From positions 55,964 through 119,963 of the forward strand of contig JAFZVQ010000067.1 of assembly GCA_017617715.1 (NCBI GenBank): a stretch of DNA of 64,000 bases. Reading direction: 5' to 3'. Below, piece by piece: positions 3,688-17,301 of the stretch (within the stretch, counting starts at the first letter, position 1; each line of letters starts with the position of its first letter). The position numbers and the translations under genes are program-made. The notes under the pieces were generated by a model. The model was given only the letters and a program-made list of their open reading frames with translations, ran no database searches and was not told where the DNA came from. This DNA comes from Bacteroidales bacterium. GTDB lineage: Bacteria > Bacteroidota > Bacteroidia > Bacteroidales > UBA932.

Positions 3688-6600
3688 TTAATCCACATTG
3701 CGGATACAGCGGAGAGGCGCGGCTATGCGGTAGCTCACCTTTGTGCCGTTGCATGTGTACTGGCTGGCGTCAGCTTTATTGGTCATGGGCATGAAGCCGT
3801 AGAACTGCATGTTCTTAATGCCGCTTGAAGCATCATCGGTAGTGTTGTAAGTGACACCGGCGAAAGATGAGCCGCAGAACATACCGGAACTGATACGGTC
3901 TTTGTAGGCGGTCATAAAGCCCATGAGGGAACCGTTGGTCTTGGTGACGTCCTGAATTGAAATCATGCCGTATGCATCCATGCCAAAGCCAGCGGCATTC
4001 AGCAGAGCCATTGAGCCCTCAGTCCCGTTATAATACGGGGCGTCTGTCTTGGTGGTCATGCCGACGCACTTGCCGACAAGATTGACAATCTCTTCCACCG
4101 AAGGCACATGCCAGCCGGGAGGGCAGATGCCCTGGGCCTTTTCAAGGGCCTGGGCCTGCGCGGCCGAAGTAATGGCCCCCACACTGAGTCCGAGGGCCAC
4201 TTCAGCCTGATAGAGATACCCCTTGGCAGCAATATCCGCCTCGTCGGTAGTGAATTCCAGCGCAGTCTGGCCGGCGTTGATCTTAATAGGAGCGAACACG
4301 CCGGCAGTCACCGCGTTGACGTCTGTAGAAGGAGTCATGCCGGCAGGGAGATATGCAAGGTTGCTGGCCATCCACCAACGGCCGTCTGCAAGCTGCACTA
4401 TCGGATACTCCCTGCCGGCATACCTAAAATTTAGATTCGCCAGGTCTTCGGTGAAAGATGCGGAAGAGATGGGGTTGCCGGCGATAATGAGGTTGACATT
4501 CTCAGTCTTGCCTCCCTTGATGTTGCCGACAATATTGTCGATAGCCGGGACAGCGCCGTTCACCGTGGTGTTTGCCGTCACTTCCAGAGCACTGCTGCTC
4601 GTGCCGAGCGTGATGGTGTGCTCGGTGTCCTTCCTGAACCAGCCGAAGATGGAACCGGCAAAAGCGCCGGACACGGGAGCGTCGACCACACCGGTGAAAG
4701 TCTTTTCAGCCTCGCCGAAACCGCCCACGAAACCGCCGACCGCGCCATTGGAGCAGGCGCTGCTCACCGATCCCGTGTTGATACAACTATCAATATCGGC
4801 ATTGGCATAACCAATAAGGCCGCCGACTTCAGCTTCCTTTCCAGCCGAGGTATAAGAACTCGTATTGATCACATCGCCGCTGTTCTGGCATTCCTTCATG
4901 AGACCATTGAACCCGCCGGAAAGACCGCCGAAGCAGAGAGGCCCGTCAAAGTTGGCAGTAACCGTACCGGAATTAGTGCAGCTTTGCATGGTCAGCTGAC
5001 TGCCGCTGTACCCTCCGTTAATACCACCGAGATAGTTATAAGCAGTTGCATAAGTGACAACATTCTGGAGTGTCGTATTGCCGCTGTTCTGGCAATCCTT
5101 GATGACCGTCTGCTTGGCTGCAACTCCAATGAGGCCGCCGACATAATGCTGCTGGGCATTAATGGGGTTGTTGTCCTTGTCTCCATCAACGACCAGATTG
5201 CCTGTATTGGTACAATTGGTCACATTGGCATCTATAAAACCGGCAAGTGCACCGCCAAGGATGAACTTGGTGTTGGACTTGATAAGGATATCCGCTTTGT
5301 TATGGCAATTGACCAGATGTGCCGTAGCAGCACCGACCACACCTCCGCAGCAGAAGACAGGGCCGCCGGTTGAAATCATACTGGGGGTTATCTGAATGGC
5401 CACCTCATTGGTACAGTTCTCAACCGTCACCTCAGTGGATGAATTGTTGGCCATATCGCTGTACTTGCCGCTCATGAACGGACCTGCGCCACCGAACACC
5501 CCGCCAAAGGAAGAGTACTGGGTATTTCCGCCGCCCTGCGCCATTGCAGTACCGCCGGCTATACCGGCATCAATAATCATCTGGCCATAATTATGGCAGT
5601 CGGATGCATTACCGGTGACATAACCGGCCACACCACCGAAACTGGCGTCGGTAGCTGCGATTGATTTACCGCCGGTGTATTTGATAGAACCATAATTGCT
5701 GCAGCCGCGAATCTGGCCTTCGCAGGCGCCGATTACGCCGCCCATTGCAGGGTATGACCCTTTACCGCCGGCAGGATAAGACCATTCGACAGTACCTTTG
5801 TTGACACATCCCTCGATAATACCGTGCTCGGAAGGAGCATTGGCCACGGTAGGAGTAAGGCCGACAACGCCGCCGATACCGAACTTTTTCATCTGTTCAG
5901 TTTCGCCGCTGAAAACGAACTTGATGGAACCTTCGTTCACACAGTCCTTGACTATCACCTCTCCGGCCTTGTCGACATGGCCCACACGGGCGGCGACGCC
6001 GCCGATGGAGCTGACGGACTGGCTGGTTGTGGTGAGCTCCACATCAATCTTTCCGGTGAACTTGCAGCCGTCCACGAGACCTGTTGTGGATTCACCCACG
6101 ACGCCGCCGCAATAGACACGGCCAGCCTGGTCGGACTTAATGGTGATGTTACCTGCAACCTCGCAGTTCCTGATCACACCGGTATTGCCCTTGGAAACGA
6201 TAAAAGCGATGCCCGTCATGTCTTCGATGGCATCCGTCCAGTTGATGCTGCAGGAACTGTCTATCTTAAGATCCCAGATATAGCCGGAGTTGGTGGCGAA
6301 CAAGGCGTTGGACGCTGCCCAGTTCTTGATAGTGTGGCCGTGGCCGTCGAAATGGGCGGCCCAGGACTCGGCCGGGACGACGGTCTTGCCTTCCAGGTCG
6401 ATATCTGCCATCAGATTGACCCCAAGGCTGCCGGGATAAGTGGAAGCCTCGGAAAGGAAGTCGATAAGCTGATCGGCATTCATGATAATTGAATAGCACC
6501 AGGGGCAGTCTTTCAGGGCGTCACCAAGGTCGATACCCTTGTTGCGGGGCAGTGCGAAAGACTCGGTCTTCTCCCTTCTTGCCCATTTGCATTCGGTATC

Positions 6601-7329
6601 TGCAAATACTTCAAAACGCTTGACCTCCGGAGTCGGTGGCACTACGATATAATAAGTTTTTCCGGGGGTAAGGCCGCCATCAGGGGCTGCCATGATGTAG
6701 AACCCACCGGAACAGTTTACTATTTCAGGGGCCTCGCCGGTCGTGCTCACAGTCACCTTCATCTGGCCTGTCTGATATCCGCTCTGCTCAGCTGACCATA
6801 CGCCGGCATCCACAACTTCTTCCTTGTTGACGCATATACCGACCAGGGAGAAAGTGTTCTTGAACTGGGGCTTGGCTGCAGCATCGGCAAAATATGCCAC
6901 GGAAGAAAGGGCTTCGGGGCAGACGTTGCCGCCGGCAGGAATAACCTGCCAGTCCGGAATAGTCACATCAACCACATTCCCTTCGCGGCTACCGGCCTGG
7001 CTGAAAGGATAGACGGCGATGAAAGTGCTGGCGCCGGCAGGCACTGAGCCAGTGAGCTTCACGGCGTCGAAATCCACGGCAGAGACGGTGAATTTCTCCG
7101 GGGTGGTGGCGTCGCCTGCATACACGGCGACCTCGTCGCCGACAGCCCACACGACGGTGTTGCCGTCGAGGATAGCCTTGGTCTGGGCATCGCACTGTGC
7201 GGAAAGGGTGATCTCGACATAGCCGTCGCGGACAGGGGCAACCGGCATTTCATCGGCAGGGGCTGTCTCCTTCTGGCAGGAGACCAGCGCGGCAAAAGCT
7301 ATCGCCGCAAAAGCAAAATACTTCTTCAT
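3688..7329 (-). CDS. Large surface lipoprotein: fimbrillin-like N-domain, GLUG-like Cys repeats, C-terminal FISUMP domain
   Basis: A 1213-residue protein with a lipoprotein signal (MKKYFAFAAIAFAALVSC, Cys 18). Residues about 30-270 resemble the fimbrillin-type domain (a 'TKAILDGNTVVWAVGDEVAVY' pattern). From about 370 to 890 there are roughly 13 repeats built as 'GGVVG...v.nC.N.G.i', a GLUG-like beta-helix, most with a Cys in the turn. Residues about 970-1213 form a FISUMP-type domain ('REYPIVQLADGRWWMASNL', 'CPPGWHVPS', ending 'APLRCIRNVD'). It is the last gene of a minus-strand operon, 12 nt after the 45-aa peptide gene at 7342-7479, and its signal peptide is nearly identical to that of its paralogue at 7497-10277. 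It is probably surface exposed; whether it acts in adhesion or as a fimbrial accessory is unknown. Confidence 0.85.
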   Translation of the reverse strand: MKKYFAFAAIAFAALVSCQKETAPADEMPVAPVRDGYVEITLSAQCDAQTKAILDGNTVVWAVGDEVAVYAGDATTPEKFTVSAVDFDAVKLTGSVPAGASTFIAVYPFSQAGSREGNVVDVTIPDWQVIPAGGNVCPEALSSVAYFADAAAKPQFKNTFSLVGICVNKEEVVDAGVWSAEQSGYQTGQMKVTVSTTGEAPEIVNCSGGFYIMAAPDGGLTPGKTYYIVVPPTPEVKRFEVFADTECKWARREKTESFALPRNKGIDLGDALKDCPWCYSIIMNADQLIDFLSEASTYPGSLGVNLMADIDLEGKTVVPAESWAAHFDGHGHTIKNWAASNALFATNSGYIWDLKIDSSCSINWTDAIEDMTGIAFIVSKGNTGVIRNCEVAGNITIKSDQAGRVYCGGVVGESTTGLVDGCKFTGKIDVELTTTSQSVSSIGGVAARVGHVDKAGEVIVKDCVNEGSIKFVFSGETEQMKKFGIGGVVGLTPTVANAPSEHGIIEGCVNKGTVEWSYPAGGKGSYPAMGGVIGACEGQIRGCSNYGSIKYTGGKSIAATDASFGGVAGYVTGNASDCHNYGQMIIDAGIAGGTAMAQGGGNTQYSSFGGVFGGAGPFMSGKYSDMANNSSTEVTVENCTNEVAIQITPSMISTGGPVFCCGGVVGAATAHLVNCHNKADILIKSNTKFILGGALAGFIDANVTNCTNTGNLVVDGDKDNNPINAQQHYVGGLIGVAAKQTVIKDCQNSGNTTLQNVVTYATAYNYLGGINGGYSGSQLTMQSCTNSGTVTANFDGPLCFGGLSGGFNGLMKECQNSGDVINTSSYTSAGKEAEVGGLIGYANADIDSCINTGSVSSACSNGAVGGFVGGFGEAEKTFTGVVDAPVSGAFAGSIFGWFRKDTEHTITLGTSSSALEVTANTTVNGAVPAIDNIVGNIKGGKTENVNLIIAGNPISSASFTEDLANLNFRYAGREYPIVQLADGRWWMASNLAYLPAGMTPSTDVNAVTAGVFAPIKINAGQTALEFTTDEADIAAKGYLYQAEVALGLSVGAITSAAQAQALEKAQGICPPGWHVPSVEEIVNLVGKCVGMTTKTDAPYYNGTEGSMALLNAAGFGMDAYGMISIQDVTKTNGSLMGFMTAYKDRISSGMFCGSSFAGVTYNTTDDASSGIKNMQFYGFMPMTNKADASQYTCNGTKVSYRIAAPLRCIRNVD

Positions 7330-7341
7330 AGGGCGATAATT

Positions 7342-7479
7342 TTACCAGGTGAAATCTTCAAAGCCGCCGAAATCTTCGGTCAGGCCTTCAGGACTCTCGC
7401 AGAGTACGCTTTCGCAGTACTTCTCCGACAATTCGCAAACCGGAGCGCTATAGGCTCCCTTGAAAAGATTTGTAACCAT
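7342..7479 (-). CDS. 45-residue conserved Cys-containing peptide, copy 1
   Basis: A short gene read directly from the minus strand: ATG at 7479, TAA at 7342. The peptide starts MVTNLFKGAY and ends LTEDFGGFEDFTW; its Cys residues are at 15, 22 and 27. It has no signal peptide or membrane segment and is acidic with an aromatic tail. It is 34/45 identical to the peptide at 10290-10427, and the last 22 residues are identical. Both copies lie 12 nt upstream of a large MKKYFAFAAIA lipoprotein gene. Repeated position plus stronger conservation of the tail argue that it is a real gene. Function is unknown. Confidence 0.75.
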   Translation of the reverse strand: MVTNLFKGAYSAPVCELSEKYCESVLCESPEGLTEDFGGFEDFTW

Positions 7480-7496
7480 ATTTGTAGATAAAAAAA

Positions 7497-10277
7497 CTAG
7501 TTCAGTACCACATTGACAACCTCGGTGTAGACATCGAAGCCGGAGTCCTTCTGGAGGTATCCGACCAGTTTGTCCTTGTCGGCAAGGTCGGCTGCGGTCA
7601 CGGCCACGCCGTTGATGGTAGTGGTGGAGGCTACAGTGATCGGCTGGCCCTCGAGTCCGTATTTTACGGAACTCTTGTTGTTGATGGTGCCGCCGGAGAC
7701 AATTCCAACGCAGACGCCGGAAGAGGCTGTCATCCTGACGTCGATAGAGTCGTCGTAGTAGTTCTGTGCGGTGTTGCCATAGCCGCCCACCAGGCCACCT
7801 ATAAAGGTGTTGGCAGCGGACTCATTGACCATCTCGCAGTCCACGGCGCAACGGACCATGTCGCCCTGGCCGAAACCGGAAATACCGCCCATGGAACTGG
7901 CATAAGACAACTCATCATCAGGCTGGCCGTCTTTATGTCCGGCAGAAGTGGCATTACGCATAATAAGTTTACCGGTATTGCTGCAGTCCTCAAGATACTT
8001 GGTGCAGGCACCGATGCCGCCAACGCGCACCTGGGATGCACTCACGGACACTATGTCGGCGGTGTTGTGGCAGTTCTTGGTGATGTATTTCTTGTTGGTA
8101 TTACCCACAATGCCTCCGATGTAGGAGAACGTAGTGTTGGCTTGAGCGTTGGTGTAGGTGATATTGCCGTGATTCAAACAGTTGGCCCACTCCAGCTCAC
8201 CGTCGGTGTTAATGATGCAGAAACCGGCGATTCCGCCGACCGCTGTCTGCTTGCCGGTGGATTTAACCTCTACTTCACCATCGTTGACACAATCTTCCAC
8301 GCTTCCGTTGATAGCGCCTGCGACGCCACCCACACGCATGTAACCAGCACCGTCAGTGCCTGCGTCCAATGTGACCTTACCGGTATTATGGCACCGGTTG
8401 CACACCTTGGTAGCGGTGTTATGGCCGACGATGCCGGCAACGCCGCCGATACAGGGATAAGGATTGGTGCCGGCTGAGCTGGGGATGGATGATGTATTGG
8501 TATGCGCAAACATACCGGTGACGGTGATTGCGCCGGAATTGGAACTGTCCTCGATACCGCCGGCCACATATCCGGCCACGCCGCCGATGTTGGGACGGGT
8601 CACGGATACATCCTTGGGACTGGTGTAGGTGACGTCTCCTTCGTTGACGCAGTTCTCGATCTTGGCGGCAGTGTATCCTACAACTCCACCCAGGTTAACA
8701 TATGCGCCGGAGCCTCCGAGAACGTACTCGAGAGCCACGTTGCCATAGTTCTTGCAATCTTTGATGATTCCGGAGTAGTTGACGCAACCGAACACGGCTC
8801 CGAGATAGTAGTTGTTGCCCTTGCCGATGTTCTTGTAGATAATATTACCGGAGTTGGTGCAGTTGCTGACCGCGAGCTCTCCGACAGTGCCGGCTCCACG
8901 TCCTCCCACAGCGCCGAAATAAGGACAGCAGCTGGATTCCAGGCCGTTCCATTGTATGTAAATCTCTGCGGTGTTGTGGCAGTCTTCAACAAGCGCGTTT
9001 TTCACATTGGTATTGCCGAAAATCATGCCGTAATATGCACGGCCGATATTGGTCTCCCAGACCTGTGAAAGAGGAGCATTGTTCGTGCATCCACGCAGGG
9101 TGCCGTCGTTGAAGCAAACCACAAAGCCGAAGCTGGAGCCTTTTCCGTCATCGGTACTGTTTCCATAATAGGTCGGGTAAGGATAGCTCAGTCTGCAGCT
9201 TGCATCCAGCACAATGCCTTCGATAAGACCGGTGCTGGTGCCGAACAGCGCGACACCATCGGAAGTCCAGTTCTTCAGGCTGAATCCCTGGCCGTAGAAC
9301 TTGCCGGCCCAGGTCTCGGCGGTGGTGAGGGTGAAGCCGGACAGGTCGATGTCGTTGCCGAGGTACACATTGTCTTCAGCGGTGTAGGTGGATGCTTCCG
9401 CAAGGAAGTTCTTCAGCTGCTCGGCAGTGGTGATGTAGTCATACTTGAATGTGACAGTTGCGAGGGCGTCGCCGACGCTGAAGCCCTTGTTGCGCTCGAA
9501 TGCCTTGGTCTCGGAAGCCGTCTTGTGGCCGACCCTGCCGCCGCCCTTGGCTGCCATGGTGAAGCCCTTGGCCTCAGGGCACGGAGGCACTACGGCGATA
9601 TACTTCTTGCCGGCAACGAATCCGCCGGTGGGGAAGACGGTCGTGGAGATGCCTCCACAAAGATTGGTGATGACCGGGGCCTCGCCGGCTGTGCTGACCT
9701 CGACGGAAACCACACCGGGAGCATATTCGCTGGTGGAGAAGTCAGAGTAGAAAACCACTCCTTCGATATCGGAGCCCTTGCTCATCTCGAACTCAATCAG
9801 GGAGAACACGTTCTTGAACTGGGGCTTGGCGGAAGTGGTGGAGAAATAGGCGACGGACGACATGGCCGCAGGGTCGATATTGCCGTCTGCCGGGATATAC
9901 TGGGTGTCGGGAATGGCCACGCGGACAAGGTTGCCGTCGCGGAGTGCAGCCTGTGCTGCGGGATACACCGCGATAAGGGATGTGGTGCCGGCGGGCACGG
10001 AACCGGAAAGCTTCACGGCGTCGAAATCGACTGCAGTGACCGTGAAGGTTTCAGCCTTGGTGGAAGCGTCGGGATACACGGCAACTTCGTCGCCGACTGC
10101 CCAGACCACGGTGTTGCCGTCGAGGACAGCCTTGGATCCGGCTTCAAGGCCGGCGGAGAGGGTGAGTTCCACATAGCCGTCACGGGCGGGAGCCTCGGGA
10201 ATCTCGGTTGCGATCTCCTTGTTGCAGGAGACAAGAGCGGCAATAGCTATCGCCGCAAAAGCAAAATACTTCTTCAT
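7497..10277 (-). CDS. Large surface lipoprotein: fimbrillin-like N-domain plus GLUG-like Cys repeats, no FISUMP domain
   Basis: A 926-residue paralogue of the 1213-residue protein downstream. The lipoprotein signal MKKYFAFAAIAIAALVSC (Cys 18) is followed by the same fimbrillin-like region ('SKAVLDGNTVVWAVGDEVAVY') and about 12 GLUG-like repeats with motifs such as 'DCHNTAEI', 'NCTNSGNI', 'NCVNEGDV' separated by 'GGVAG' turns. It ends with a short strand (YTEVVNVVLN) rather than the FISUMP domain, so the tandem copies differ in their C-termini. The next peptide gene starts only 17 nt after its stop, so one transcript probably covers both units. It is inferred to be an outer-membrane surface protein. 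Confidence 0.85.
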   Translation of the reverse strand: MKKYFAFAAIAIAALVSCNKEIATEIPEAPARDGYVELTLSAGLEAGSKAVLDGNTVVWAVGDEVAVYPDASTKAETFTVTAVDFDAVKLSGSVPAGTTSLIAVYPAAQAALRDGNLVRVAIPDTQYIPADGNIDPAAMSSVAYFSTTSAKPQFKNVFSLIEFEMSKGSDIEGVVFYSDFSTSEYAPGVVSVEVSTAGEAPVITNLCGGISTTVFPTGGFVAGKKYIAVVPPCPEAKGFTMAAKGGGRVGHKTASETKAFERNKGFSVGDALATVTFKYDYITTAEQLKNFLAEASTYTAEDNVYLGNDIDLSGFTLTTAETWAGKFYGQGFSLKNWTSDGVALFGTSTGLIEGIVLDASCRLSYPYPTYYGNSTDDGKGSSFGFVVCFNDGTLRGCTNNAPLSQVWETNIGRAYYGMIFGNTNVKNALVEDCHNTAEIYIQWNGLESSCCPYFGAVGGRGAGTVGELAVSNCTNSGNIIYKNIGKGNNYYLGAVFGCVNYSGIIKDCKNYGNVALEYVLGGSGAYVNLGGVVGYTAAKIENCVNEGDVTYTSPKDVSVTRPNIGGVAGYVAGGIEDSSNSGAITVTGMFAHTNTSSIPSSAGTNPYPCIGGVAGIVGHNTATKVCNRCHNTGKVTLDAGTDGAGYMRVGGVAGAINGSVEDCVNDGEVEVKSTGKQTAVGGIAGFCIINTDGELEWANCLNHGNITYTNAQANTTFSYIGGIVGNTNKKYITKNCHNTADIVSVSASQVRVGGIGACTKYLEDCSNTGKLIMRNATSAGHKDGQPDDELSYASSMGGISGFGQGDMVRCAVDCEMVNESAANTFIGGLVGGYGNTAQNYYDDSIDVRMTASSGVCVGIVSGGTINNKSSVKYGLEGQPITVASTTTINGVAVTAADLADKDKLVGYLQKDSGFDVYTEVVNVVLN

Positions 10278-10289
10278 AGGGCGATAGGT

Positions 10290-10427
10290 TTACCAGGTGA
10301 AATCTTCAAAACCGCCGAAATCTTCGGTCAGGCCTTCGGGGCTCTCGCAGAGCACGCTGTCGCAGTACTTTCCGGAAAGCTCGCATGCAGGAGCATTGTA
10401 AACTCCAAATGATTGTTTTTCAAACAT
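10290..10427 (-). CDS. 45-residue conserved Cys-containing peptide, copy 2
   Basis: The first gene of the four-gene operon. The ATG at 10427 was chosen because the peptide then aligns end to end with copy 1 (also 45 residues), and because the promoter box at 10468-10475 lies downstream of the longer in-frame start at 10589. It begins MFEKQSFGVYNAP and shares Cys15, Cys22, Cys27 and the whole C-terminal 22 residues with copy 1. No signal peptide. It is 12 nt upstream of the 926-aa lipoprotein gene. Candidates include a leader or regulatory peptide, a periplasm-independent partner, or a processed peptide precursor; the sequence does not decide. Confidence 0.75.
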   Translation of the reverse strand: MFEKQSFGVYNAPACELSGKYCDSVLCESPEGLTEDFGGFEDFTW

Positions 10428-10467: not shown

Positions 10468-10475
10468 CAAATATA
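10468..10475 (-). promoter_or_regulatory. -7 element of the peptide/lipoprotein operon
   Basis: On the minus strand this reads TATATTTG, an exact match to the Bacteroidota -7 consensus TAnnTTTG, 40 nt upstream of the ATG at 10427. It lies just downstream of the rpsU terminator, as expected for a new transcription unit. A clear TTG at -33 is not visible in the U-rich stretch upstream. Confidence 0.6.
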
Positions 10476-10533: not shown

Positions 10534-10728
10534 TTATTGCTCTTCCATAAGGCGGAGGTGCTGGACGTAAATCGCCTTCTGCTTTGCAATACGGCGCTTC
10601 ACTGAAGGCTTCTCAAATGTCTTGCGGGCGCGCATCTCGCGGACGGCACCGGTCTTCTCGAACTTCCTCTTGAACTTCTTAAGGGCGCGTTCGATATTCT
10701 CGCCTTCTTTAACCTGTACGATGATCAT
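10534..10728 (-). CDS. rpsU: Small ribosomal subunit protein bS21
   Basis: A 64-residue, very basic protein (MIIVQVKEGENIERALKKFKRKFEKTG...) that matches bS21 over its full length. bS21 sits near the 3' end of 16S rRNA; in Bacteroidia-type ribosomes it helps cover the anti-Shine-Dalgarno sequence. The gene is monocistronic, with its own promoter at 10767-10774 and a terminator. Its leader carries an unusually strong Shine-Dalgarno sequence while its neighbours have none, which fits known bS21 autoregulation in this phylum. Confidence 0.95.
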   Translation of the reverse strand: MIIVQVKEGENIERALKKFKRKFEKTGAVREMRARKTFEKPSVKRRIAKQKAIYVQHLRLMEEQ

Positions 10729-15462: not shown

Positions 15463-17301
15463 TCAGATCTCCTTCTTGATTGCGTCCACAAGTTCGCTCA
15501 CGAGGAACGGCTGGCCCTGGACCTTGTTGTACTGCACATAGTTGAACTGCGGCAGGATTCCGCGAAGATAGTTCACGAACTGGCCGCTGTTGAGCTCGCA
15601 CACGAGTATCTTCCCGAACCTGGAGAACACTTCCTCAGTGTTGGCAGGCAGGGGGTTGATGAAGTCGAAATGGGCGTAAGACACGTTGCCGGCTTCTTCG
15701 ACGGCGCCGAGCAGGTGCCCGTAGGTGCCGCCCCAGCCCACCACCAGGAGCTTGCCCTCCGCGGGGCCGCGGAGAATCTCGAGCCTGGGGAGCCTGGAGG
15801 CTATGCGCGCCACCTTCTCGGCACGCTCGCGCACCATGAGCTCATGGTTCTGGGGGTCGGTGGAAAGCACGCCCTCGTGCGTCTTCTCAAGACCGCCGAC
15901 GCGGTGCTCGAAACCCTTCTGGCCGGGGATGGCCCAGCTGCGCACGAGCGTCTCGGGATCCCTTTCGAACGGGCGGAACTTCTCCCCTTCCGGCAGCACG
16001 CCGCTCACGAACGGGGGCTTGATCTCAGGATAGTCAGCCATCGAAGGGATGCGCCAGGGCTCGCTGCCGTTGCCGAGGAAGCCCTCGGAAAGCAGCATGA
16101 CGGGAGTCATGTGCTCCAGGGCTATCTGCGCGGCGGTGAAGGCGGCGTCGAAGCAGTGCGAGGGAGAGTGCGCCGCTATCACGGGCATGGGGCACTCGCC
16201 GTTGCGGCCGTAAAGGGCCTGGTTGAGGTCGGACTGCTCTGTCTTTGTGGGGAGGCCAGTGGAAGGGCCGCCGCGCTGCACGTCCACGACCACCAGCGGG
16301 AGCTCCGCCATCACGGCAAGGCCGAGAGCCTCGGTCTTGAGCGACAGGCCGGGACCGGAAGTGGTGGTGACGGCCAGGTTGCCGGCGTAGCTTGCGCCTA
16401 TGGCGGTGCAGATGCCGGCTATCTCGTCCTCAGCCTGCAAGGTCTTGGCACCGAGGCTCTTGTGGATGGCAAGCTCCTCGAGTATGGCCGTAGCGGGCGT
16501 GATGGGATACGAGCCGCAGAAGAGAGGCAGGCCGGATTTTTCAGATGCCGCGAGCAGGCCCCAGGCGGTGGCCTGGTTGCCGGTGATGTTGCGGTAGGTG
16601 CCGGGCTTCTTGTGCTTCGACGGCGCAATGGTGTAGGTGTTCGGAATGGCCTGGATGTTGGCGGCATAGTTGAAGCCGTCGCTGAGGACCTTCTTGTTGG
16701 GCTCGATCAGCTCGGGATGCTTCTTCGCGAATTTCCTTTCAAGATACAGGTAGATGTACTCCAGCGGACGGCTGTAGATGTAGCAGGCCATGCCGAGGGT
16801 GAACATGTTCTTGCACTTGAGTATGGCCTTGTTGTCAAGGCCGCTGTCCTTGAGCGACTCGCGGGTGAGCTCGGAGATGGGGGCCACGATGATGGCGCGG
16901 TCTTCCACCTTGAGTTCGGTGAAAGGGTTGTCGGTCTTGAATCCGGCCTTCTGCATGCCCTTTTCGTCGAAGGCGTCGCCGTCCACGAGTATCATGGCCG
17001 TGGGCTTGCACCACTTCGCGTTGGACTTCAGGGCGGCGGGGTTCATCGCCACCAGGAGGTCGCAGAAGTCTCCGGGGGTCTCCACCCCTTCGGATCCGAT
17101 ATGGACCTGGAAACCGGAAACGCCGGACACGGTGCCCTGCGGCGCGCGTATCTCGGCGGGAAAATCAGGGAATGTGGACAGTTCGTTGCCATAGATCGCA
17201 GACATATCTGCGAAAAGAGACCCGGTGAGCTGCATACCATCTCCCGAGTCTCCTGAGAATCTGATCACAACATCCTTTAAGTCAATGACTTTGTGTTGCA
17301 T
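15463..17301 (-). CDS. korA: 2-oxoglutarate:ferredoxin oxidoreductase, fused gamma-alpha subunit
   Basis: 612 residues: an N-terminal gamma domain (about 1-190, 'VVIRFSGDSGDGMQLTGSLFAD') fused to an alpha pyrimidine-binding domain from about 220 ('GLPLFCGSYPITPATAILEELA', 'TTTSGPGLSLKTEALGLAVMAELPLVVVDVQRGGPSTGLPT', quoted as two neighbouring segments). This fusion is standard for KorA in Bacteroidota. The ATG at 17301 follows ompH by 24 nt. Together with KorB and GdhA it forms an anaerobic 2-oxoglutarate module. Confidence 0.92.
   Translation of the reverse strand: MQHKVIDLKDVVIRFSGDSGDGMQLTGSLFADMSAIYGNELSTFPDFPAEIRAPQGTVSGVSGFQVHIGSEGVETPGDFCDLLVAMNPAALKSNAKWCKPTAMILVDGDAFDEKGMQKAGFKTDNPFTELKVEDRAIIVAPISELTRESLKDSGLDNKAILKCKNMFTLGMACYIYSRPLEYIYLYLERKFAKKHPELIEPNKKVLSDGFNYAANIQAIPNTYTIAPSKHKKPGTYRNITGNQATAWGLLAASEKSGLPLFCGSYPITPATAILEELAIHKSLGAKTLQAEDEIAGICTAIGASYAGNLAVTTTSGPGLSLKTEALGLAVMAELPLVVVDVQRGGPSTGLPTKTEQSDLNQALYGRNGECPMPVIAAHSPSHCFDAAFTAAQIALEHMTPVMLLSEGFLGNGSEPWRIPSMADYPEIKPPFVSGVLPEGEKFRPFERDPETLVRSWAIPGQKGFEHRVGGLEKTHEGVLSTDPQNHELMVRERAEKVARIASRLPRLEILRGPAEGKLLVVGWGGTYGHLLGAVEEAGNVSYAHFDFINPLPANTEEVFSRFGKILVCELNSGQFVNYLRGILPQFNYVQYNKVQGQPFLVSELVDAIKKEI

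Follow-up and report, generated by a model that had tools for sequence, protein, structure and literature searches.

The window analyzed here is a 64,000-nucleotide stretch of contig JAFZVQ010000067.1 (positions 55,964 to 119,963; assembly GCA_017617715.1) from a Bacteroidales bacterium, and this report concerns two short peptide genes within it, each of which lies directly ahead of a gene for a large surface lipoprotein. Gut and rumen bacteria of the group to which this organism belongs appear, from their genome sequences, to make dozens of such small peptides, each encoded beside a large surface protein. The source genome is designated G000; other G numbers denote compared genomes and L numbers denote extracted stretches.

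All four genes of the locus are on the minus strand, in the order peptide 2, lipoprotein 2, peptide 1 and lipoprotein 1, with gaps of 12, 17 and 12 nt. Peptide gene 2 (10290..10427) encodes 45 amino acids from its ATG, with a leader carrying Y10-x-x-P13 and a predicted core that runs from C27-E-S29 to W45. Its candidate partner, lipoprotein 2 (7497..10277; 926 amino acids), has a lipoprotein signal and a fimbrillin-like N-terminal region, assigned by motif, and GLUG repeats. Peptide gene 1 (7342..7479; 45 amino acids from its ATG) has the same layout, and its candidate partner is lipoprotein 1 (3688..7329; 1213 amino acids), which contains GLUG repeats and a C-terminal Fib_succ_major domain. 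Since peptide gene 1 begins 17 nt past the stop of lipoprotein 2, the four genes are likely a single transcription unit.

Both open reading frames (ORFs) are as the original prediction described them, with the same last 22 residues (SVLCESPEGLTEDFGGFEDFTW) and Cys at positions 15, 22 and 27, and the coordinates agree with its placement of each peptide stop 12 nt ahead of the ATG of a lipoprotein that starts MKKYFAFAAIA. The GLUG repeats that it reported are recovered above the Pfam cut-off in both proteins (Glug, PF07581; E 2.9e-4 in lipoprotein 2 and 3.4e-7 in lipoprotein 1), as is Fib_succ_major in lipoprotein 1 (PF09603; E 1e-12). A search of Pfam/NCBIfam-type families also gave a weak, below-cut-off match to the Mfa1 family in the window (E 0.0023). 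Upstream of the peptide 2 ATG, at a distance of 41–48 nt, is TATATTTG (10468..10475, minus strand), a TAnnTTTG sequence of the Bacteroidota -7 type promoter motif. This motif occurs upstream of family peptides in 33 of 108 regions, compared with three of 108 single shuffles and two of 108 peptide genes themselves. A bS21-like 64-amino-acid ORF immediately upstream of the peptide unit (10534–10728, minus strand) is separated from peptide 2 by a GC-rich hairpin and T run that was spotted by eye; a generic promoter and terminator scan gave nothing useful, and the hairpin is absent from its output.

A peptide family encoded beside surface proteins

A first protein query recovered homologues in G000 and in genomes of the same genus (20 of 61 genomes at E≤1, with chance explaining many weak matches). 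A profile built from 15 peptides (A1) then gave matches in 76 of the 101 genus genomes at E≤0.1, so the homologues that the original prediction expected beyond this locus do exist. At E≤1 this profile found 36 places in G000, 33 in G032 and 25 in G071; a control profile built from 17 reversed peptides found 0, 1 and 1 places in the same genomes (best E 0.108), and nine places in eight genomes in total. A wider profile (A6) gave 38 places in G000 at E≤0.01. A G000 set of 33 sequences was assembled from 32 of the 36 places, all lying beyond the window, less one that was discarded and plus the window pair. Common to these are YxxP, then [LI][CA]xS at constant spacing, and a tail of acidic character, and 20 of the 33 have Trp among the final five residues.

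When peptides from other genomes were included, 73 of 76 fit the signature YxxP ... [C/A]-x-S plus acidic tail. The fit permitted spacings of 16–19 and either Ser or Thr at position 3, and yet every one of the 73 fitting peptides has Ser at core position 3; the distance from Tyr to core 1 is 17 residues in 69 of 76 and 18 in four. Cys occupies core 1 in 65 of the 73, and in the three non-fitting peptides the Ser is shifted one place later. The three-cysteine pattern that was first noticed thus describes the window pair but not the family, in which only Cys27 is general (65/73) and Cys15 and Cys22 are not. The ratio of nonsynonymous to synonymous change (pN/pS) is 0.44 over 16 same-length pairs, which share sequences and are non-independent (leader, 0.59; core, 0.28), and 0.29 for the window pair; the two kinds of change have not accumulated at equal rates, and the amino acid sequence is constrained. 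Scored as profile-negative, G033 nevertheless holds a diverged peptide (YETP...LTVS) 5' of a lipoprotein at about position 16543 on the minus strand of L177; the family is therefore under-counted.

Pairing with surface-protein genes was assessed by a pattern scan of extracted loci, mostly picked by peptide and not by neighbor, that yielded 128 distinct ORFs. A lipoprotein-like start lies at -30 to +60 nt after the peptide in 102 of these (not inspected singly), most commonly at 12 nt (16/102). Another ORF follows in six, four of which are lipoproteins missed by the test, while 20 have no following ORF, 12 of them resembling family members. Once 10 ORFs were discarded by eye as chance, about 106 of 118 family peptides have a lipoprotein start within this interval, and the recurrent family without signal peptides, paired with surface lipoproteins, that had been foreseen from the window is real and has more than 30 members in G000. 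The converse count within G000 stretches, a biased sample, places a peptide beside 30 of 39 fimbrillin-like lipoproteins vs. three of 25 others. Tandem peptide genes also occur: two lie ahead of a single lipoprotein at about 2500–2770 of L105 (G000 C15:11414 and 11558), and a similar pair precedes a lipoprotein in G023 (C15:85814 and 86121). The lipoprotein that follows a family peptide in L026 (G004 C70) has a CxxC thioredoxin-like start and is not fimbrillin-like.

The order of the two genes is less constant. In G207, which has 18 peptide matches, the four peptides whose upstream side was inspected begin downstream of a large gene, at distances of 18, 18, -4 and 22 nt; three of these large genes begin with a signal-like stretch and the fourth is cut by the stretch end. 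A further G207 peptide precedes a lipoprotein (L131). Because this genome holds peptides both after large genes and before a lipoprotein, what generally holds is that a peptide adjoins a surface protein, in no fixed gene order; of the “fixed architecture” originally claimed, the adjacency stands and the order does not. Two of the upstream G207 proteins (L238, L239) end in GLYIVNGKKVIMK, a tail that resembles a type IX sorting signal.

Similarity among cores tracks similarity among residues 29–228 of the lipoproteins (Mantel r 0.263, 0/500 permutations, 103 of 106 couples), within G000 as well (r 0.224, 4/1000 permutations, 30 of 34 couples) and among divergent couples in G000 (r 0.143, 31/1000). 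The last 200 lipoprotein residues show no correlation with core or leader. Across species, the leader does not follow residues 29–228 (r 0.001), a pattern in which the core and not the leader would track the lipoprotein; this pattern fails within G000, where the leader value (0.235) matches that of the core. The leader correlation in G000 means that the relationship between core and lipoprotein could reflect shared descent.

Enzyme operons and their distribution

The YxxP motif led us to look for recognition elements (RREs) of ribosomally synthesized and post-translationally modified peptides (RiPPs). G000 encodes two operons, both outside the window, of a kinase, a peptidase, an RRE and an ATP-binding cassette (ABC) exporter, at 8342–11584 of L171 and about 2353–5546 of L170 (PF05402 for the RRE, E 1.3e-14 and 2.6e-16, respectively). 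Of 12 genus genomes tested, 11 contain PF05402, at 17 places. RRE residues N35 and D73 align to N33 and D70 of LppB (9x8z), and neither varies among the 11 RREs from these 17 places that were aligned; the Asn and Asp are also kept in 7/7 RREs of other loci, two Asp having been judged by eye. The kinase has an invariant SGTGKSTH P-loop and an NDD motif in 19 sequences. Peptidase residues S35, H73 and D88, assigned by motif and not via an LppS alignment, are invariant (8/8), and the exporter matches PF00664 and PF00005 above cut-off in both operons, with matches to the MsbA and CydC models below their cut-offs. A nucleotidyltransferase (NTP transferase; NTP_transf_5, PF14907) was found in G016, G013, L232 and L316, and none was seen in the two G000 operons.

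Peptides and peptidase occur together. In an order-level survey of 247 genomes, all searched with the same settings (peptide profile A6 at E≤1e-3, peptidase profile A5 at 1e-4), 10 were peptide-positive and 30 peptidase-positive, and the peptidase was present in all 10 peptide-positive genomes vs. 20 of 237 others (Fisher p = 1.6e-10, uncorrected for kinship). When the five genomes that supplied peptides were removed, 5/5 still had the peptidase (p = 8e-6, likewise uncorrected), and none of the seven order genomes with weak peptide matches (0.03–0.05) had one. Among the 101 genus genomes, 71 have both, 10 the peptidase only, 10 the peptide only and 10 neither (p = 6e-4); for the 47 best genomes the corresponding numbers are 35, 6, 2 and 4 (p = 0.014).

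The neighborhood of the kinase was examined in named genomes, where at least 584 kinase relatives were found in 595 stretches and the best 80 loci were used. In these best 80 of at least 584, a peptidase lies no more than 5 kb from the kinase in 74, an RRE in 69, an ABC exporter in 49 and an NTP transferase in 17. Several loci also contain the peptide. In L232 (G314), a peptide (3792–3929), a lipoprotein (3977–5962), kinase, peptidase (PF00717 above cut-off), RRE, NTP transferase (PF14907, E 6e-40) and ABC genes all lie on one strand, and the Prevotellaceae locus L294 has a peptide, lipoprotein, ABC, RRE, peptidase and kinase. L230 (G334) contains a peptide, lipoprotein, OmpA, peptidase and ABC genes, kinase and RRE not being seen in it, while in L323 a peptide 94 nt after a secreted protein gene is followed by kinase, RRE and ABC. 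The peptide of L296 (Bacteroides sp. 51) and its Mfa_like_1 lipoprotein (PF13149, E 4e-6) are about 5 kb from the operon, and L278 has a lipoprotein, the operon and a peptide (E 0.021) that is without Ser at core 3. In the Fibrobacter locus L316, two peptides (E 1.4e-4 and 0.0044) alternate with proteins, two of which carry List_Bact repeats (PF09479), ahead of NTP transferase and kinase genes; L302 (peptide E 0.027) and L295 (0.0026), also Fibrobacter, are arranged similarly. The peptides of these three loci, which belong to another phylum, share a similar tail, GLAPxxNDHLA (profile E 1.4e-4 to 0.045), and adjoin NTP transferase-kinase genes as well as proteins that are large and repetitive.

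This set of enzymes resembles that of the linear polyphosphorylated peptides (LPPs), a RiPP class that, according to PMC13381572, is found only in Bacillota and has no known role. As described there, LPP clusters encode a SipW-like peptidase, a discrete RRE, an HprK-like kinase, an NTP transferase and an MsbA-like exporter; the YxxP leader binds the RRE through Y-16 and P-13, and the core starts A1-Q2-S3, with S3 the sole phosphosite (S3T is unphosphorylated). The LPP RRE residues that hold this Tyr and Pro, the Asn and Asp of LppB, are the two conserved in the RREs above. Shared with the system here are a signal-peptidase-like leader peptidase, a discrete RRE, a P-loop, putatively HprK-like, kinase, an ABC exporter, the YxxP leader, Ser at core 3, NTP_transf_5 in some genomes and, in G000, the absence of any lasso B2 protease match. 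In contrast, our family occurs in Bacteroidales and Fibrobacter, has its precursors dispersed, 30 or more of them, where LPP clusters hold one to three, and pairs each precursor with a surface-protein gene. The full LPP leader motif, YxxPxVLxHQxIxFETxxS with a cut after Thr, is not matched; YxxP and Ser alone are common, and the family leader is one residue longer. Because this motif and the cut-site residue differ, the system appears LPP-like in outline and is not assigned to LPP. Paeninodin-type phosphorylated lasso peptides also have an RRE, an HprK-like kinase, a nucleotidyltransferase and a [Y/W]xxP leader (PMC13381572), but no B2 protease was found in G000 (a macrolactam cyclase was not searched for). 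The Mfa_like_1 partner in L296 resembles fimbrillin and type V pilus proteins of Bacteroidales, and no peptide partner of the present kind was found for them in the literature searched. Passages of two RiPP surveys (PMC10352776, PMC7533575) do not describe a peptide-surface-protein system, and we found no description of the arrangement in the literature searched. As to the claim that the family is undescribed, it holds for the peptides, the window pair having no match in Pfam or NCBIfam, but the matching enzyme kit has already been described for Bacillota.

Proposed maturation and competing explanations

Taken together, the signature and the operons suggest that the peptides are probably trans-acting, RRE-dependent precursors of RiPP-type phosphopeptides and are each expressed along with a surface protein; of the several functions first guessed at, a modified peptide precursor is the one that the evidence favors. 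A discrete RRE, its gene located at another site in the genome, would bind the leader via the Tyr and Pro of YxxP, the putatively HprK-like kinase would phosphorylate the Ser at core 3, the signal-peptidase-like enzyme would remove the leader ahead of [C/A]-x-S, and the ABC transporter would export the acidic core, mostly 18–25 residues long. The products of the two G000 operons would act in trans on the precursors from 30 or more genes. The released peptide would most likely act at the cell surface with the co-encoded surface protein, here a fimbrillin-like or GLUG lipoprotein.

A number of results weigh against this proposal. The enzyme operons of G000 are not adjacent to its peptide genes. 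A regex scan for peptides in cis found 12, barely above controls of 5, 7 and 6, and the cis evidence therefore rests on single clusters. The predicted cut site differs from that of LPPs (mostly Leu/Ile, then Cys-x-Ser, vs. Thr, then Ala-x-Ser). The RRE matches the LppB structure 9x8z weakly (E 0.76), the best PDB match being the lasso protein TfuB1 (E 0.0011); the peptidase falls below the TIGR02228 cut-off (E 1.6e-4; 21.6 bits vs. 51.85) and has no significant match in a PDB search; and the kinase matches no Pfam or NCBIfam family above cut-off. Nine further genus genomes, several of them incomplete, have peptides without the peptidase, and ten have the peptidase without a peptide-profile match (among them G033, with its diverged peptide). 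In G032, which is 91% complete and has 27 peptides, no peptidase was matched, and the only RREs are an RRE domain within a 490-amino-acid protein and a lone RRE gene (L178, 8956–9222), alongside which no kinase, peptidase or exporter was seen. At E≤1e-3, 20 of the 30 peptidase-positive order genomes lack a peptide match, and a peptide lies in the flank of only eight of the 80 kinase loci (best 80 of at least 584). These last observations on G032, the 20 order genomes and the other 72 kinase loci are what would be expected if peptides and operon merely share lineages and the true RRE clients are other peptides. That explanation seems quite unlikely given the scattered lineages involved, the cis clusters in several genomes and the residue-level match to the LPP leader.

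Other readings do without the operon or assign it differently. A peptide that stays unmodified and serves the lipoprotein as a small subunit or as a cytoplasmic chaperone would account for the tight pairing and for the way core similarity tracks lipoprotein residues 29–228, but is unlikely, as it leaves the invariant YxxP...S, the RRE-kinase-peptidase-exporter operon and the cis clusters unexplained. A role as a short leader, translated so as to couple or adjust translation of the lipoprotein that follows, would suit the short spacing, most often 12 nt, and the promoter motif ahead of a third or so of the peptides (33/108). The four G207 peptides that lie after large genes disfavor it, and the amino acids conserved, YxxP and Ser at fixed spacing, are those of an RRE-bound leader; for these two reasons the translational regulation suggested in the original prediction finds no support and, with the peptides also under amino acid constraint and co-occurring with the peptidase, we regard it as very unlikely. 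That the peptides are lasso precursors is highly improbable. The family agrees with the lasso register in Y-17, P-14; core 1 is of the C/A/G/S type, and an acidic residue is found at core 9 in 43% and at core 10 in 60% of 30 G000 peptides. The [Y/W]xxP motif is shared too, according to PMC13381572. Acids are frequent along the whole tail, however, and the B2 protease family PF13471 has no match in G000 nor in nine of the 11 other genus genomes tested, exceeding its cut-off in one of the 12 (G013) and falling below it in G068.

Beyond RRE-dependent maturation, we tentatively raise a more general possibility, which we consider somewhat doubtful: a single RRE-kinase-peptidase-exporter machine might mature 30 or more scattered precursors for surface decoration, with each phosphorylated core brought to, and specific for, the adjoining adhesin or fimbrillin-like protein. 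The core may perhaps be joined to the surface protein through the nucleotidyltransferase where one is present. If so, the products of this RiPP pathway would form part of surface structures and would not be diffusible natural products. Bacteroidales of the gut and rumen, and also Fibrobacter, are now seen to have a kit very similar to that of LPPs, and some genomes have dozens of precursors. The pairing with surface proteins hints at a function for the LPP class of RiPPs, and suggests a role for unannotated short genes that adjoin Bacteroidales surface proteins.

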